Positions 30,796 to 46,891 of a DNA stretch of 64,000 nt are shown in pieces (within the stretch, counting starts at the first letter, position 1; each line of letters starts with the position of its first letter). The translations under genes were made by a program, and so were the position numbers. The DNA lies in contig JAAYEJ010000064.1 of assembly GCA_012728835.1 (NCBI GenBank), forward strand, positions 1 through 64,000, written 5' to 3'. The notes under the pieces were generated by a model. The model worked only from the letters and a program-made list of their open reading frames with translations, did no database searches and had not been told where the DNA came from. The DNA is from Candidatus Brocadiaceae bacterium. Lineage in GTDB: Bacteria; Planctomycetota; Brocadiia; SM23-32.

Positions 30796-32112
30796 TCAGC
30801 CCTGGGCGGCCAGCTTCAGCCCGCCCACCATCAGGGGCGGGGCGCAGGTGCCGCCCAGCCAGCGGGCCTCGCTCCCGACTGCCTCCAGTTGCCTGAGGAT
30901 TTCGTAGACGTTGCCGGCGACCATGCAGTCCTTCACGCGGCCGACGACGCGGCCGTTCTCGACCAGGAAGCCCAGGTCGAGGTTGACGCTGAACTCGCCG
31001 GCCAGCACGTTGCTCTGGCCGCTGCCGAGCGTCTGGTCCACGACGACGCCGCGCTTCATGCCGGCGATCATGTCGTCGAGCGACGTGTCGCCGGGGGCGA
31101 CGATCACGTTGCTGGAGGACGGCACCGGGCGGCTGGAGTAGCCCCGGGCGGCGTTGGCGCCCGGCTCCACGCCCAGCAGGGCGGCCGTCTGCAGGTCGGT
31201 GCGGAACGTCTTCAGGACGCCTCGGTCGAACAGGTGCGTGCGGCGCGCGGGCAGTCCCTCGTCGTCGGTGGCGCGTGTTCCGGCCGCAAAGGGCACCGTG
31301 GGGTCGTCGGTGAGGGTGATGCGCGCGTCGAGTATCTGCTCGCCCAGCCGGCCGCGCAGAACGCTGGAGCCCTTGTGGACGTGCTTGCCGTTGAGGGCGA
31401 CCGAGAGCGGGGCCAGCAGGTTGCCGAGGGCTTTGGGGGTGAAGATCATCGGCATGGCCTCCAGTCGCGCGGGCACGACGACGGAGGCGTCCCGCATCTT
31501 CTGCAGGGTCTCCCTGGTCAGGTCGGCCACGGAGTCGATCACGCGACCGGAGGTTGTGTATTCGTAGACCTGGAGGAAGCCGGCCTCGGAGATCTCCTGG
31601 ATGCCGACGCTGGCGGACATGCTGGTGGCCCGCTGCCGGACGTCGAGCCCGGCGGAGTTCAGGATTCGCTGGCTCCCGGTCGCCCGCGACACGCCGCAGC
31701 CGTAGAGGTATTCGGGGCTGGCCCGGAGGCTCATCTCGAGTCCCTCGCGGCCCATCTCAACCAGCCGGGCGGCCTGCACGGCCGGGACGTCGTCGTCCCA
31801 CGTGGCGGGGGCCTCGATGCCGGCGGGCTGTGTGGGGAACGCGAAGCGGGCCTCGTCGCCGAACTCGGCGCTGGCCCCGGCCATGTCGACCAGGCGGGCG
31901 GGGTCGCGCAGGTCGGTCGTGGAGGCGAACCCGATGCGGCCGTCGCGGATGACGCGCAGGCCGATGCCGCGCACCTGCACGGTGGTGATTTCCTTGAGAC
32001 GGTTGTCCTCGAAGCTGACCTCGATGGCCTCGCTGGTTTCCTCGAAGACCTCGGCATGGCCGAAGCGCTTGGCCGCGGCCTCCAGGATGGCTTCTGCTGC
32101 GCCGTCTGTCAT
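30796..32112 (-). CDS. pmbA: TldE/PmbA-type protease partner
   Basis: A 438-residue member of the PmbA/TldD family. It contains the N-terminal EVFEETSEAIEVSFEDNRLKE module, a central SVALNGKHVHKGSSVLRG and a C-terminal GGTCAPPLMVGGLKL end. It lacks the HExxxH metal motif, so it is the non-catalytic TldE/PmbA subunit that pairs with TldD to degrade unfolded peptides and mature some microcins. It lies 26 bp after tldD on the same strand, the usual heterodimer pair. Confidence 0.93.
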   Translation of the reverse strand: MTDGAAEAILEAAAKRFGHAEVFEETSEAIEVSFEDNRLKEITTVQVRGIGLRVIRDGRIGFASTTDLRDPARLVDMAGASAEFGDEARFAFPTQPAGIEAPATWDDDVPAVQAARLVEMGREGLEMSLRASPEYLYGCGVSRATGSQRILNSAGLDVRQRATSMSASVGIQEISEAGFLQVYEYTTSGRVIDSVADLTRETLQKMRDASVVVPARLEAMPMIFTPKALGNLLAPLSVALNGKHVHKGSSVLRGRLGEQILDARITLTDDPTVPFAAGTRATDDEGLPARRTHLFDRGVLKTFRTDLQTAALLGVEPGANAARGYSSRPVPSSSNVIVAPGDTSLDDMIAGMKRGVVVDQTLGSGQSNVLAGEFSVNLDLGFLVENGRVVGRVKDCMVAGNVYEILRQLEAVGSEARWLGGTCAPPLMVGGLKLAAQG

Positions 32113-32138
32113 GGGATTCCTCGTTGGAAGGGCCGGCC

Positions 32139-33500
32139 TCAGCGGCCGCCGATGACCACGTTGCGTATGCGGCAGTGGGGGCCGCCGTCGCCGACGCGCA
32201 GCGGGCTCTGGCCGCCCTTGCCGCAGCCTCCGAGGCCGCCGTGCATGCGGAAGTCGTTGCCCAGGCAGTCGATGTTCCGGAGCGTCTGGAACACGTTGCC
32301 CGTCAGCACCACGTCGCGGACCTTCTCGGCGATCTTGCCGCCGCGGATGCGGTAGGCCTCCTCGGCGCTGAAGGTGAACATCTCCATGTTCGTCTGTCCC
32401 CCCAGCATGCCCACGCAGTAGAGGCCGTCGTCGGTATCGGCCAGCATCTCCTCGAACGGCGTCTCTCCGGGCTCCATGAACGTGTTGGTCATGCGCACGA
32501 TCGGCGGATGGCGGTAGGAGATGGCGCGGGCATTGCCCGTGGGCGCCTCGCCCATCTTGGCGGCCGTCTCGCGGTTGTGCAGGCGGCCGGTCAGGACGCC
32601 GCCCTCGATCAGCGGCGTGCGCGAGCCGGGCACGCCCTCGCTGTCGAAGGCGATGAAGCCGGCCTCGCCCTGCCGCGAGCCGTCGTCGATGATGTTGAGG
32701 AACTCGGGGCCGAACCGCCGCCCGATCTGCATGATCTCCTTCAGGCGGGGGTTCTCATACAGGAAGTCGGACTCGCTCAGGTGCCCGAACGCCTCGTGGA
32801 CGAACACGCCGCAGAGCTTCGGATCGACGATGACGGTGTAGGTGCCGGCCTCGACCGGCCGGGCGTCGAGCGATTCGACCGCGCGGCGGACCGCACGCTC
32901 GCAGTCGGCCTCCATGGCGGTCACCTTTGCGAACCCGCGCAGGTCGCCGTTGGACTCGAACGCGCGCTGGATGTTGGAGCCGTCGACGGCGATGGCGCCG
33001 ACGAGTGCGCCGCAGAAGACGTATTCCTGCTCGATCAGGCTGCCCTCGGAGCTGGCGAACCAGGAGGTGCCGCGGCTGTCGCGGTAGACCACCATGCTCG
33101 TCTGCACGCGTGCGCTGCCCAGTATGAGGCGGTTGTAGCGCTCGCACATCCGCTGCTTGTCTTCCAGCGGGACGTCGGCCGGATCGCTCTCCACCTGCGT
33201 TCGGTAGGTCTGCCGCACGGGCTCGACGGGTGCCAGGGCGAACTTCTGCCCGCCGACCAGCTCCGCCTGCCGGACGGCCATGCGGGCATAGCGCTCCACG
33301 TCGTCCAGATCGTTGAACGTGGCGAAGCCCCATCCGCCGTTCTTGAGCACGCGCACGCAGCCGCCGCGCGACGTGCGCTCGCCGATGTCCTCCAGCTCGC
33401 GGCCGGAGTAGTTGATGCTGGTCGAGGTGCCTTCGTGGATGCGCGCGTCCGCGTAGTCGGCCGGCAGACTCGCGCACAGCTCCCGGAGCTTCTCTTTCAT
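32139..33500 (-). CDS. tldD: Metalloprotease TldD
   Basis: A 453-residue zinc protease subunit. HEAFGH (235-240) is the HExxxH motif, followed by LSESDFLYENPRLKEI; a late GGCGKGGQSPLRVGDGG supplies the third Cys ligand typical of TldD. It forms a heterodimer with TldE/PmbA (the next gene) that cleaves small unfolded peptides inside the enclosed cavity. Start ATG 33500. The roughly 320 bp between this start and the downstream leader peptide contain the divergent aromatic promoter and no other gene. Confidence 0.95.
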   Translation of the reverse strand: MKEKLRELCASLPADYADARIHEGTSTSINYSGRELEDIGERTSRGGCVRVLKNGGWGFATFNDLDDVERYARMAVRQAELVGGQKFALAPVEPVRQTYRTQVESDPADVPLEDKQRMCERYNRLILGSARVQTSMVVYRDSRGTSWFASSEGSLIEQEYVFCGALVGAIAVDGSNIQRAFESNGDLRGFAKVTAMEADCERAVRRAVESLDARPVEAGTYTVIVDPKLCGVFVHEAFGHLSESDFLYENPRLKEIMQIGRRFGPEFLNIIDDGSRQGEAGFIAFDSEGVPGSRTPLIEGGVLTGRLHNRETAAKMGEAPTGNARAISYRHPPIVRMTNTFMEPGETPFEEMLADTDDGLYCVGMLGGQTNMEMFTFSAEEAYRIRGGKIAEKVRDVVLTGNVFQTLRNIDCLGNDFRMHGGLGGCGKGGQSPLRVGDGGPHCRIRNVVIGGR

Positions 33501-33748: not shown

Positions 33749-33777
33749 TTGACACCGTCGTCGGCCGGCGGTATCAT
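33749..33777 (+). promoter_or_regulatory. Consensus promoter of the aromatic leader and DAHP synthase
   Basis: TTGACA (33749-33754), a 17-bp spacer and TATCAT (33772-33777). Predicted start near 33784, about 40 nt ahead of the leader-peptide ATG. Confidence 0.8.
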
Positions 33778-33823
33778 TGGGCGTGTGACGGAACTTACAG
33801 TCTCCGCACGGGGCAGGCTCGAC

Positions 33824-33922
33824 ATGGAGCACATCGACCGGCACGGTTGGTCCGCGGTTCGCCCGACGGGGGCGTCCTGCGGTGGTGGTGTGTTCTGGTA
33901 TTTCTATTTTACGCTCCGTTGA
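33824..33922 (+). CDS. Aromatic leader peptide controlling DAHP synthase
   Basis: A 32-codon reading frame starting at ATG 33824, six bases after a modest CAGG site, and ending at TGA 33920-33922. Residues 24-29 are Phe-Trp-Tyr-Phe-Tyr-Phe, coded at 33893-33910, with a further Trp at residue 9, so all three aromatic amino acids are sampled by consecutive codons just before the stop. Its stop lies 3 nt before an antiterminator arm and 44 nt before a strong intrinsic terminator, upstream of the DAHP synthase gene. This is the layout of classical ribosome-mediated attenuators (trpL, pheL). Stalling for want of any charged aromatic tRNA would leave the antiterminator arm free. I infer the function; the sequence features are direct. 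Confidence 0.85.
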   Translation: MEHIDRHGWSAVRPTGASCGGGVFWYFYFTLR

Positions 33923-33925
33923 GGA

Positions 33926-33983
33926 GGCTGCTTCCGGGCACATAGCCTGAGACGGCGAGAAGACCCGAGCCCCGAAGTCAGCC
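33926..33983 (+). promoter_or_regulatory. Antiterminator stem of the aromatic attenuator
   Basis: GGCTGCTTCCGGGC (33926-33939) can pair with 33969-33983, which is the 5' arm and loop of the terminator, with one C-C mismatch and one bulged base. The two structures exclude each other. The arm begins 3 nt after the leader-peptide stop, so a ribosome finishing the leader would cover it, while one stalled on the aromatic run would not. Confidence 0.7.
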
Positions 33984-34003
33984 GACTTCGGGGCTCTTTT
34001 TTT
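33967..34003 (+). terminator. Intrinsic terminator (attenuator) before DAHP synthase
   Basis: GAGCCCCGAAGTC (33967-33979) and GACTTCGGGGCTC (33984-33996) form a perfect 13-bp stem with loop AGCC, followed by seven T (33997-34003). It is the strongest terminator in the window and lies between a promoter and the gene it serves, 31 bp before the ATG. Confidence 0.93.
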
Positions 34004-34034
34004 GTGCCCTGACCATAGCAGAAGGAGACATGCC

Positions 34035-35048
34035 ATGATCATCGTCATGCAGCCGACAGCGAGTGAGGACGAGGTGCAGCACGTCGTCGAGCGCGTCGAG
34101 GAGGCCGGCCTGGAGGTTGTGCGCCTCCGCGGCGAGAAGCGCAACGTCATCGCCGCCATCGGCGACCGCCGCGATCTGGTTACCGACCGCTGGCTCGCGC
34201 TGCCGGGGGTCGAGCGCGTCGTGCCCATCCTGAGCCCCTACAAGCTGGCCAGCCGGGAGGCCGCACCGGGCGCCACGCCGGTGCGCATCAACGGGAGTGT
34301 GCTGGGAGGCCGCGCCGTGCAGGTCATCGCCGGGCCCTGCGCCGTGGAGGACTACGATTGCACGCTGCGCATTGCACGTTGCGTGAAGGCCGCCGGCGCC
34401 GTGGGCCTGCGCGGAGGCGCCTACAAGCCGCGCACGAGCCCCCACAGCTTCCAGGGGCTGGAGGAGGACGGGCTGAAGATCCTGCACGCGGTCGGGCAGG
34501 AGGTCGGACTGCCGATCATCACGGAGGTGCTCAGCCCCGACCAGGTGGATACGGTCTGCCGGTACGCCGACGTGCTGCAGGTAGGCGCCCGCAACATGCA
34601 GAACTACTCGCTCCTGAAGGGGCTCGGCCGCATCGACAAGCCCGTGCTGCTCAAGCGGGGCATCAGCGCCACGGTGGACGAACTCCTCCTGGCTGCCGAG
34701 TACATCCTCAAGGGCGGCAACCCGCGCGTGATCCTGTGCTGCCGCGGCATCCGCACCTTCGAGGACCACATGCGCTACACGCTCTCGCTGGGCACGGTCG
34801 CCCACCTGAAGGAGGTGACGCATCTGCCCGTGATCGTCGACCCGAGCCATCCCGCAGGGCGTCGCAGCCTGGTGGCGCCGATGGCGAAGGCGGCGGTGGC
34901 GTGCGGGGCCGACGGCCTGCTGATCGAGGTGCACCCCGCCCCGGAGACCGCGCCGGTGGACGGACGCCACACCCTGACCTGCGAGGGCTTCGAGACGCTG
35001 ATGGGCGAGCTGCGCCTGGTAGCGGAGGCGGTGGGGCGGACGATGTGA
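34035..35048 (+). CDS. aroF: 3-deoxy-7-phosphoheptulonate (DAHP) synthase with N-terminal regulatory domain
   Basis: A 337-residue type I-beta DAHP synthase that joins phosphoenolpyruvate and erythrose 4-phosphate, the entry to aromatic synthesis. An N-terminal ferredoxin-like domain (1-65) precedes the barrel. The barrel has AGPCAVE (Cys102), GGAYKPRTSP, DPSHPAG (His272), Glu298 and Asp309, the metal-ligand set and numbering I recall for the Thermotoga maritima enzyme, whose N-terminal domain mediates feedback inhibition by Tyr/Phe. The start is ATG 34035, seven bases after AAGGAG. Expression is probably set by the leader peptide/attenuator upstream, so enzyme level and activity may both answer to aromatic supply. 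It faces proB. Confidence 0.96.
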   Translation: MIIVMQPTASEDEVQHVVERVEEAGLEVVRLRGEKRNVIAAIGDRRDLVTDRWLALPGVERVVPILSPYKLASREAAPGATPVRINGSVLGGRAVQVIAGPCAVEDYDCTLRIARCVKAAGAVGLRGGAYKPRTSPHSFQGLEEDGLKILHAVGQEVGLPIITEVLSPDQVDTVCRYADVLQVGARNMQNYSLLKGLGRIDKPVLLKRGISATVDELLLAAEYILKGGNPRVILCCRGIRTFEDHMRYTLSLGTVAHLKEVTHLPVIVDPSHPAGRRSLVAPMAKAAVACGADGLLIEVHPAPETAPVDGRHTLTCEGFETLMGELRLVAEAVGRTM

Positions 35049-44967: not shown

Positions 44968-45768
44968 ATGGGCAGTGTCCATCTGCTTGTCCTTCTGATG
45001 CTCTGCATCCCGTCGGCCGCGCAGGCCGGCACGGCGCCGCCCCCGCAGCGCATCTGCAAGACGGGTCCGGACACCTACCGCATCGGCAGCGTCGACCTGG
45101 ACGCCGCCCGACGCGAGATCCGCTGCAGCGGCCGGGTCAACATGGCCGAAGGGGGGCCGATCGAGCTTCTGGCCTGCCTCCCGCACGGGAAGACGCACGA
45201 GACCGTCCTCACGCTGGACCTCGTGCCCATGGACCTGCAGCTCTCCCTGCTGCTGCTCGGCCTCTCGCCCGGCCGGAACCCGGCCGTCCACTATCGCCCC
45301 GGAAGCCCGTCCGCGCAGCGTCCGCCCGGCGACACGGTGCTGTTGTCCGTCCAGTGGCGCACGCCCGGGGACGACGGAGCGGAGCCCGCCGTGCGGACGG
45401 TGCCCGCCGAGTCGCTGCTCCTGAACGTCCAGACGGGGAAGCCGGCCGCCGGTGTTCGCTGGGTCTTCCTGGGCAGCCGCCTGGCCGAGGGCCGCTTCGG
45501 GGCCGACCTGGACGGGTCGATCATCACGACGTTCCACGACCCCCTGGCCATCCTGGAGATCGCCGAGGAGACGGCCAACGACGACATCTACTACAACGCC
45601 AATGCCGACCTGTGCCCGCCGGTGGGCACGCCCGTCGTGCTGATCATCCGGGTCCCGCCGGCCGAGGACGCCCCGGCCCAGGGCCCCAGGGACGAACCGT
45701 CCCGGGTGCCCCCCGTTCCCGAAGAGAAGGAGGAGCATCATGCGCAGGACGTCGAGGGTGGTGGTTAG
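44968..45768 (+). CDS. YdjY-domain exported protein
   Basis: A 266-residue protein. A signal peptide (MGSVHLLVLLMLCIPSAAQA) ends in AQA. The next 75 or so residues match the YdjY pattern: RREIRCSGRVNM, GGPIELLACLPHGKTHETVL and LLLGLSPGRNP. The C-terminal half is a folded-looking extension with a conserved WVFLGSRLAEG and ends in a Pro/Glu/His-rich tail. Function is unknown. It overlaps the next gene by 29 bp, and both belong to families common in Planctomycetota. ATG 44968 has a weak site. Confidence 0.75.
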   Translation: MGSVHLLVLLMLCIPSAAQAGTAPPPQRICKTGPDTYRIGSVDLDAARREIRCSGRVNMAEGGPIELLACLPHGKTHETVLTLDLVPMDLQLSLLLLGLSPGRNPAVHYRPGSPSAQRPPGDTVLLSVQWRTPGDDGAEPAVRTVPAESLLLNVQTGKPAAGVRWVFLGSRLAEGRFGADLDGSIITTFHDPLAILEIAEETANDDIYYNANADLCPPVGTPVVLIIRVPPAEDAPAQGPRDEPSRVPPVPEEKEEHHAQDVEGGG

Positions 45769-46891
45769 CGTGGCCCTGCTTCTGACGATGGCGGCGGCCC
45801 GGGCTCCGCAGCGCGATCCGTCGATGTTGCTCGAGTCGAAGGCCGCCATGGCGCGCGGGCTGGCCTATCTGAAGGGCGCCCAGCGCGAGGACGGCTCGTT
45901 CCAGGGCCATCCGGCGATCACCGCCCTGGCGGTGACCGCGATGGTCGGCAGCGGCGACCCCGACCACGGCCCGCGGAGCCCCCACGTCGCCCGCGCGCTG
46001 GGCTACATCCGGGCACATGCCCGGCCGGACGGCGGCATCTACGCCGGCATGTACCCCAGCTACAGCACGAGCGTCTGCACCATGGCGCTGGTGGAGGCCG
46101 GGCTGCCGGAGGACCGCGAACTGCTTGCACGCGCGCGCACGTTCCTGCTGGGCGCCCAGGCGGACGAGAGCGAGGGCGTCGGCCCGGAGAACATCCAGTA
46201 CGGGGGCTGGGGCTATGAGAGCCAGGCCGGCCAGGACGAGATGCACCGGGCCGACCTGTCGAACACGCAGTTCGCCCTCGAGGCCATCCGCGCCCTGGAG
46301 GCCATCGCCGAGGAAGACGCCGCGGCCGCCGGGACGGGGCGGGGCGAGCAGACGCGTACGGAACTGGCCTACGAACGCGCCATCACTTACCTGTCGCGTT
46401 GCCAGAACCTGGAGGCGACCAACGATCAGCCCTGGGCCGGAAACGACGGGGGCTTCGTCTACCGGCCCGGCGAGAGCAAGGCCGGCGAGGACCCCGACGG
46501 CGGCCTGCGCAGCTATGCCGGCATGACCTATGCCGGGCTGAAGAGCATGATCTACGCGCGCCTGCCGCGCAACGACCCACGCGTGGTGGCCGCCTGGGAA
46601 TGGGCCTGCCGGCACTGGGACGTGACCCTGAACCCGGGCCTCGGCGAGCAGGGCCTCTACTACTACTACCTCACGATGGCGCGGGCGCTCAACGCGATGG
46701 AGGAAGAGGTCATCGTCGATGCCGCAGGCCGACGCCATGATTGGCGCGTCGAGCTGACGGGCCAACTCCTCAAGATTCAGCGGGCGGACGGCTCGTGGGC
46801 CAACGAAAACGGCCGCTGGATGGAGCAGATGCCGGAGCTGGTGACCGCCTACAGCCTGCTGGCGCTCCAGCACGCCGGACGCGGCTGGTGA
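45740..46891 (+). CDS. Prenyltransferase/squalene-cyclase-fold exported protein
   Basis: A 383-residue protein with an N-terminal signal-like helix (about 5-22) and alpha/alpha-toroid repeats of the terpene cyclase/prenyltransferase superfamily. QW-like motifs are seen at QREDGSFQGH, GGWGYES and QRADGSWAN; similar Gly-Asp loops recur every 50-60 residues. The DxDD or DCTAE catalytic motif of squalene-hopene cyclases is not evident, so it may be a non-enzymatic binding protein. AAGGAGG lies five bases before ATG 45740. It overlaps the YdjY gene and ends 6 bp from the convergent oxidoreductase gene. Confidence 0.8.
   Translation: MRRTSRVVVSVALLLTMAAARAPQRDPSMLLESKAAMARGLAYLKGAQREDGSFQGHPAITALAVTAMVGSGDPDHGPRSPHVARALGYIRAHARPDGGIYAGMYPSYSTSVCTMALVEAGLPEDRELLARARTFLLGAQADESEGVGPENIQYGGWGYESQAGQDEMHRADLSNTQFALEAIRALEAIAEEDAAAAGTGRGEQTRTELAYERAITYLSRCQNLEATNDQPWAGNDGGFVYRPGESKAGEDPDGGLRSYAGMTYAGLKSMIYARLPRNDPRVVAAWEWACRHWDVTLNPGLGEQGLYYYYLTMARALNAMEEEVIVDAAGRRHDWRVELTGQLLKIQRADGSWANENGRWMEQMPELVTAYSLLALQHAGRGW

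Follow-up and report, generated by a model that had tools for sequence, protein, structure and literature searches.

A putative transcription attenuator with phenylalanine, tryptophan and tyrosine control codons upstream of the DAHP synthase gene of a planctomycete

The window, by which we refer to the entire analysed stretch of 64,000 nucleotides on contig JAAYEJ010000064.1 of a Candidatus Brocadiaceae bacterium, contains a gene for 3-deoxy-7-phosphoheptulonate (DAHP) synthase preceded by a compact set of regulatory features (Table 1). The encoded protein matches PF00793 and the ferredoxin-like domain PF18152 and scores above the cut-off of NF006421 and TIGR01361. Upstream of it, we find the intrinsic terminator and the short reading frame that had been described in a first-pass annotation of this DNA. 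The promoter that this annotation had ascribed to the frame is present as the single sigma-70-like site between positions 33300 and 34600, where 0.0 are expected by shuffling, and it would place the start of transcription near 33784. The downstream neighbour of the DAHP synthase gene encodes a glutamate-5-kinase-like protein (AA_kinase and PUA domains) on the minus strand, and on the other side two adjacent genes for TldD/PmbA-type metallopeptidases are located on the minus strand at 30799-33500, divergent from the DAHP synthase gene. Since both flanking genes reside on the minus strand, the leader and the DAHP synthase gene appear to form a unit of one gene under a dedicated promoter.

Table 1. 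Features of the leader region and the DAHP synthase gene, with positions referring to the window.
Feature	Position	Strand	Remarks
Sigma-70-like promoter	33749..33777	+	TTGACA-17-TATCAT; 11 of 12 consensus bases
Region 1	33810..33829	+	covers the putative ribosome-binding region and start of the leader; from the minimum-energy fold of 33784-34010, proposed role
Leader peptide ORF, MEHIDRHGWSAVRPTGASCGGGVFWYFYFTLR	33824..33922	+	ATG to TGA, 32 codons; counterparts at equivalent position in relatives
Control codons Phe-Trp-Tyr-Phe-Tyr-Phe	33893..33910	+	codons 24-29; aromatic block kept in L003 and L004
Region 2, GGCTGCTTCCGGGC, 5' half of antiterminator	33926..33939	+	imperfect copy of terminator loop and 3' arm
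Intrinsic terminator hairpin	33967..33996	+	13 pairs followed by T7 (33997-34003); -26.1 kcal/mol; recurs in relatives
3' half of antiterminator	33969..33983	+	overlaps terminator 5' arm and loop
DAHP synthase gene	34035..35048	+	337 residues, ferredoxin-like N-terminal regulatory domain; identified by family matches

The leader frame carries a weak Shine-Dalgarno sequence and contains, at the coordinates given previously, the six consecutive aromatic codons TTC TGG TAT TTC TAT TTT. The run had been placed just before the stop codon, which is correct with respect to its presence but not to its adjacency, as three codons for Thr-Leu-Arg intervene. It is the sole run of at least five aromatic codons in the six frames of the whole window, and no run of this length appeared in any of 60 windows simulated with an order-2 Markov model. 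The next-longest aromatic run in the window, YYYY at 46658-46669, is part of a long ordinary open reading frame (45740-46891) and not of a leader. AT-rich DNA does yield short aromatic frames by chance, and the arrangement could in principle combine a coincidental run of this kind with a normal terminator that ends a transcript from upstream. We regard this as a negligible prospect in a window with a GC content of 69%, where the upstream gene is divergent, the terminator consequently serves only transcripts originating from the leader's own promoter, and coincidence is contradicted by the conservation and pairing statistics described below.

The region between the leader and the DAHP synthase gene can adopt competing structures. 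Besides the terminator, we identified an antiterminator helix in which region 2 engages with the 5' side of the terminator hairpin in 13 pairs (within the segments GCCC, GAAG and CAGCC) containing one mismatch and one bulge. The duplex has a predicted energy of -23.0 kcal/mol and is matched by 0.6% of shuffled sequences (p 0.006) if the terminator loop is included, and by 12.5% (p 0.125) with the stem arm alone. The calculated fold of the nascent RNA at 33923-33985, which corresponds to a ribosome at the last Phe codon and a polymerase just past the 5' side of the hairpin, is the antiterminator, whereas the segment 33935-34003, which remains uncovered when the ribosome has come to the stop codon, folds into the terminator. 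In the untranslated leader, the 5' part pairs with the area of region 2 and the terminator forms. At equilibrium, the terminator prevails in the fold of the whole segment 33923-34003, and the antiterminator must therefore form first, as it does in other attenuators. A ribosome extends about 12 nucleotides past the codon that it is reading (PMC4833913). With this edge, a ribosome at codon 29 reaches position 33922, just short of region 2, whereas one that has arrived at the stop codon extends to 33934 and into region 2. Stalling at any of the six aromatic codons would thus keep region 2 accessible. As judged by folds, pairing and geometry, the antiterminator is a competitor of the terminator and becomes available only upon a stall at the control codons. 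This element was absent from the first-pass annotation and it strengthens the proposal made there of a layout of the trpL/pheL type, alongside the leader, the terminator and their conservation.

Based on the computed parts, their spacing, the competing structures and the conservation of these features, we propose, with a probability of roughly 0.87, that transcription of the DAHP synthase gene is attenuated here in a ribosome-mediated manner, by means of a leader whose control codons cover Phe, Trp and Tyr. In such a mechanism, transcription would proceed from about 33784, with a ribosome translating the leader behind the RNA polymerase. If charged tRNA-Phe, tRNA-Trp or tRNA-Tyr were in short supply, the ribosome would stall at codons 24-29 with its edge at or before about position 33922, leaving region 2 free to pair with 33969-33983, so that the terminator would not form, the polymerase would read through and DAHP synthase would be made. 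If all three charged tRNAs were plentiful, the ribosome would advance to the stop codon at 33920-33922, cover the RNA up to about 33934 and block region 2, in which case the hairpin would form and transcription would end. If the leader were not translated, pairing between regions 1 and 2 would also favour termination as the default outcome.

When the regions upstream of DAHP synthase genes in related genomes were compared, aromatic codons and terminator were found to be conserved. The lack of conservation that the first-pass annotation had named as grounds for refutation was thus not observed. In two other genera of the same family, the leaders end in GGGAFWYFYFGSEQEAD with the run FWYFYF (L003) and in RAFFYFYFGSEGEAG with the run FFYFYF, which lacks Trp (L004). 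Both are followed by a terminator of the same core, and among these two leaders and that of the window, the aromatic block is conserved whereas the rest of the peptide is not. A second family of the same class, f5, which is presumably the main anammox family, contains a leader of the type FYW-V-FYYF-R-YY...GGS in nearly all genomes examined, together with a terminator of the form GCCCTRAAACC-loop-GGTTTTAGGGY T8. Its region 2, GGTTCTTAGGG, usually embeds the leader stop codon TAG and forms ten pairs with the terminator 5' arm around a bulged C. In this family, 96% of the cells are paired in the terminator and 84% in the antiterminator, both above slid controls, in helices that are too conserved to display double changes, and the alignment thus documents conservation rather than covariation. 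The aromatic codons of the same family differ mainly at the third base (TAT/TAC, TTT/TTC), which is a mark of translated sequence. This substitution pattern points to coding and suggests that the leader is translated.

We extended this comparison to 224 distinct loci, comprising 66 from the class, 80 from the remainder of the Planctomycetota and 78 named ones from mixed phyla (a set that again includes Planctomycetota), all picked by similarity to the DAHP synthase of the window and thus not a random sample of bacteria. A layout was counted if a terminator of at least 10 pairs was located within 280 bases and a reading frame ending near it contained at least five aromatic residues in eight codons. 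Terminators are present in 87 of the 224 loci and such leaders in 64 of these 87, compared to 0.9 expected from dinucleotide shuffles. At a threshold of six in eight, the number is 46, compared to 0.1 expected. The layout was found in 30 of the 66 loci of the class, 23 of the 80 from other Planctomycetota and 11 of the 78 from the mixed set, and FWY ranks first among all residue triads by the number of loci with six of eight residues. Outside of the class, leaders with terminators include LWSYYRFYFSPPG (L080), RWYFDLFYFWFIYQKGG (L082), FGFWGFFYFGTPAGG (L085), YYFWFYFAPAG (L087), FWFSYRFWYSHRD (L102), YGFFGYFWFTSG (L141) and FYFDGFFWFARP (L145). Named Planctomycetota with both elements belong to Thermoguttaceae (L162), Planctomycetaceae (L163), Planctomicrobium (L165) and Rhodopirellula (L239). 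Beyond the phylum, both are present in Calditrichota (HFFGFYFGYYYWTQ, L167), in two loci assigned to delta/Syntrophaceae (GFYGYWFYTYF, L174 and L183) and, with multi-aromatic leaders, in Desulfuromusa (L192) and Acidobacteria (L231), and a looser scan recovered leaders in Geomonas (L188), Geobacteraceae (L212), Pelobacter (L195) and Bryobacterales (L210).

These numbers also bear on the idea that a riboswitch or T-box precedes the gene, accompanied by a chance reading frame. The leader RNA is strongly structured, with a z-score of -4.1 for the minimum-energy fold of 33784-34010, as such an element would be. Still, we consider this explanation very improbable because neither the locus of the window nor 12 relatives match a T-box model or, at gathering score, any leader family in Rfam (Trp, Phe or others), and because a chance frame is at odds with the 64 leaders found and with the third-base variation that indicates coding.

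The pairing that would form the antiterminator also recurs across lineages. The stretch following the last aromatic codon pairs with the terminator 5' arm better than shuffled sequences (p at most 0.05) in 41 of the 64 loci, where 3 are expected. Terminator sequences vary from family to family, and a test for compensatory change is therefore provided by ranking, for 36 diverse loci, the region 2 of each locus against those of the others for pairing with its own terminator. With the loop included, the native region 2 is among the best tenth in 24 of the 36 loci (3.6 expected, p 4e-16), and without the loop in 16 of 36 (p 1e-7). The Calditrichota locus exhibits the full four-region anatomy of a textbook attenuator, with a long and near-perfect helix between regions 2 and 3 visible in the sequence. 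Within L167:1310-1475, CTACTGAGAGG is found at the start of the leader and again in the terminator, and its complement follows the leader stop codon.

Across lineages, the order and identity of the aromatic residues vary freely while their density is kept. This behaviour argues against an arrest peptide that, like TnaC, would respond to a free aromatic metabolite within the exit tunnel of the ribosome instead of to charged tRNA, since arrest of the TnaC type requires fixed residues at fixed places. The C-terminal segment, which is dense, rich in aromatic residues and conserved in part (FYYFRYY in family f5), would suit such a peptide, but the spacing between leader and region 2 fits stalling upon starvation and we view arrest as improbable.

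Assuming attenuation by starvation, it is relevant which amino acids would be sensed. In the genome of the window, we found one DAHP synthase. The sole other match, at 36% identity, is a short and distant homologue that lacks the N-terminal domain and most likely represents a KDO8P synthase, and a type II DAHP synthase was found neither in this genome nor in 73 of the 74 other genomes of the class. A sensor that covers every end product would be a sensible arrangement for a genome with just one such enzyme. Together with the finding that no leaders of this kind were detected before trpE and pheA of this genome, this suggests that control by the three products is exerted at the entry step of the pathway. 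Across the leaders, the control codons total 205 for Phe, 196 for Tyr and 62 for Trp. The lower count of Trp codons, the run without Trp in L004 and the response of a mixed Phe-Tyr-Phe leader of Corynebacterium glutamicum to Phe only (PMC11802643) would each be compatible with an attenuator whose regulatory effect originates from one or two amino acids, with Phe alone or Phe together with Tyr as the likeliest candidates and with no contribution from the Trp codon. We consider this version a real but clearly less probable possibility, as all three aromatic residues are present in 46 of the 64 leaders and as Trp accounts for about 13% of the residues other than Phe and Tyr in and around Phe/Tyr blocks, compared to about 3% expected, even in loci selected on Phe and Tyr alone (p 6e-12 and 1e-7 at two thresholds). 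Trp codons have thus been kept more often than by chance, which supports a sensing of Trp, and we lean towards a response to all three aromatic amino acids.

Leaders of related anatomy are known from other bacteria. In trpL, pheL and pheM of Enterobacteria, control codons also precede the leader stop codon and an antiterminator competes with the terminator, but each of these leaders samples just one amino acid, and the genes under its control belong to a terminal branch or encode a synthetase, whereas the system described here would control the entry enzyme. A common feature with ilvL, ivbL and thrL is that the end products of a shared pathway are sampled jointly by a single leader, although these pathways concern branched-chain amino acids or threonine and isoleucine instead of aromatic ones. 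The same applies to similar multi-amino-acid attenuators such as the ilvB upstream frame of Corynebacterium (PMC11109978). The closest known system is aroR, which precedes the aroF (DAHP synthase) operon of C. glutamicum. Experiments are reported to show ribosome-mediated attenuation for this Phe-Tyr-Phe leader (Neshat et al. 2014, as described in PMC11802643 and PMC4046766), with expression raised by limitation of Phe, while supply of Tyr is without effect despite the Tyr codon (PMC11802643). In both systems, a leader with mixed aromatic codons immediately precedes the DAHP synthase gene. Leaders this short seldom reveal common ancestry between phyla. The aroR leader is actinobacterial, has no reported Trp codon, and operates in a host with two DAHP synthases (PMC4046766), whereas the system of the window has about six aromatic codons including Trp, a single DAHP synthase and conservation across a phylum. 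With regard to the statement in the first-pass annotation that known leaders usually sample one amino acid, mixed aromatic codons before a DAHP synthase gene are not unprecedented. In Acholeplasma, the uORFC-13-1 motif before aroF combines a candidate upstream frame containing at least one Phe codon with a terminator, in 24 sequences from one genus and environmental DNA (PMC8632094), and shares this arrangement with the window, with no mixed aromatic block reported.

A survey from 2010 listed leader-peptide systems as known only in Proteobacteria and Actinobacteria, to which Firmicutes were then added (PMC2965389). The open literature that we searched, with subscription papers outside its scope, contains no description of leader-peptide attenuation of aro genes in planctomycetes or Geobacter, in provisional agreement with the earlier remark that no case had been described in a planctomycete-like bacterium. 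We regard the attenuator as real, functional-looking and well conserved, of a mechanistic kind that is known but in a three-amino-acid and deeply conserved form that is new. In Enterobacteria, three isozymes share the control of DAHP synthase, and each of them responds to one of the aromatic amino acids. A bacterium that has only one such enzyme must combine the three signals, which a leader with mixed codons would do without a regulatory protein. On balance, we favour the view of a widespread class in which a single leader peptide reads the charging of tRNA-Phe, tRNA-Tyr and tRNA-Trp jointly and adjusts the expression of the entry enzyme accordingly, common in Planctomycetota, including the class of Scalindua, and present in several other phyla. 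This class may be ancient or have arisen repeatedly. If correct, it would extend amino-acid attenuation to Planctomycetota and provide a natural three-input sensor, with the same solution recurring over several phyla. The presence of similar leaders in a Geomonas isolate, in other Geobacteraceae-type records and near cultured Planctomycetes renders these predictions testable.

Within the class, the layout is not uniform. It is lacking in two loci of the window's own family (L005 and L006) and in most loci of the Scalindua group, which belongs to family f7 of the class. In family f6 (L014, L032 and the reverse strand of L007), the segment from -70 to -17 before the DAHP synthase gene contains a terminator-like hairpin, GGCCCTGA...TCAGGGCC T6, and no clear aromatic leader; it may be another sensing element or a decayed attenuator. 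Finally, a metagenome-assembled genome titled Kuenenia stuttgartiensis contains a GC-rich DAHP synthase region (L161, CAMDFJ010000115.1) that contrasts with the AT-rich loci found in f5 and f7, and its contig is possibly a contaminant.
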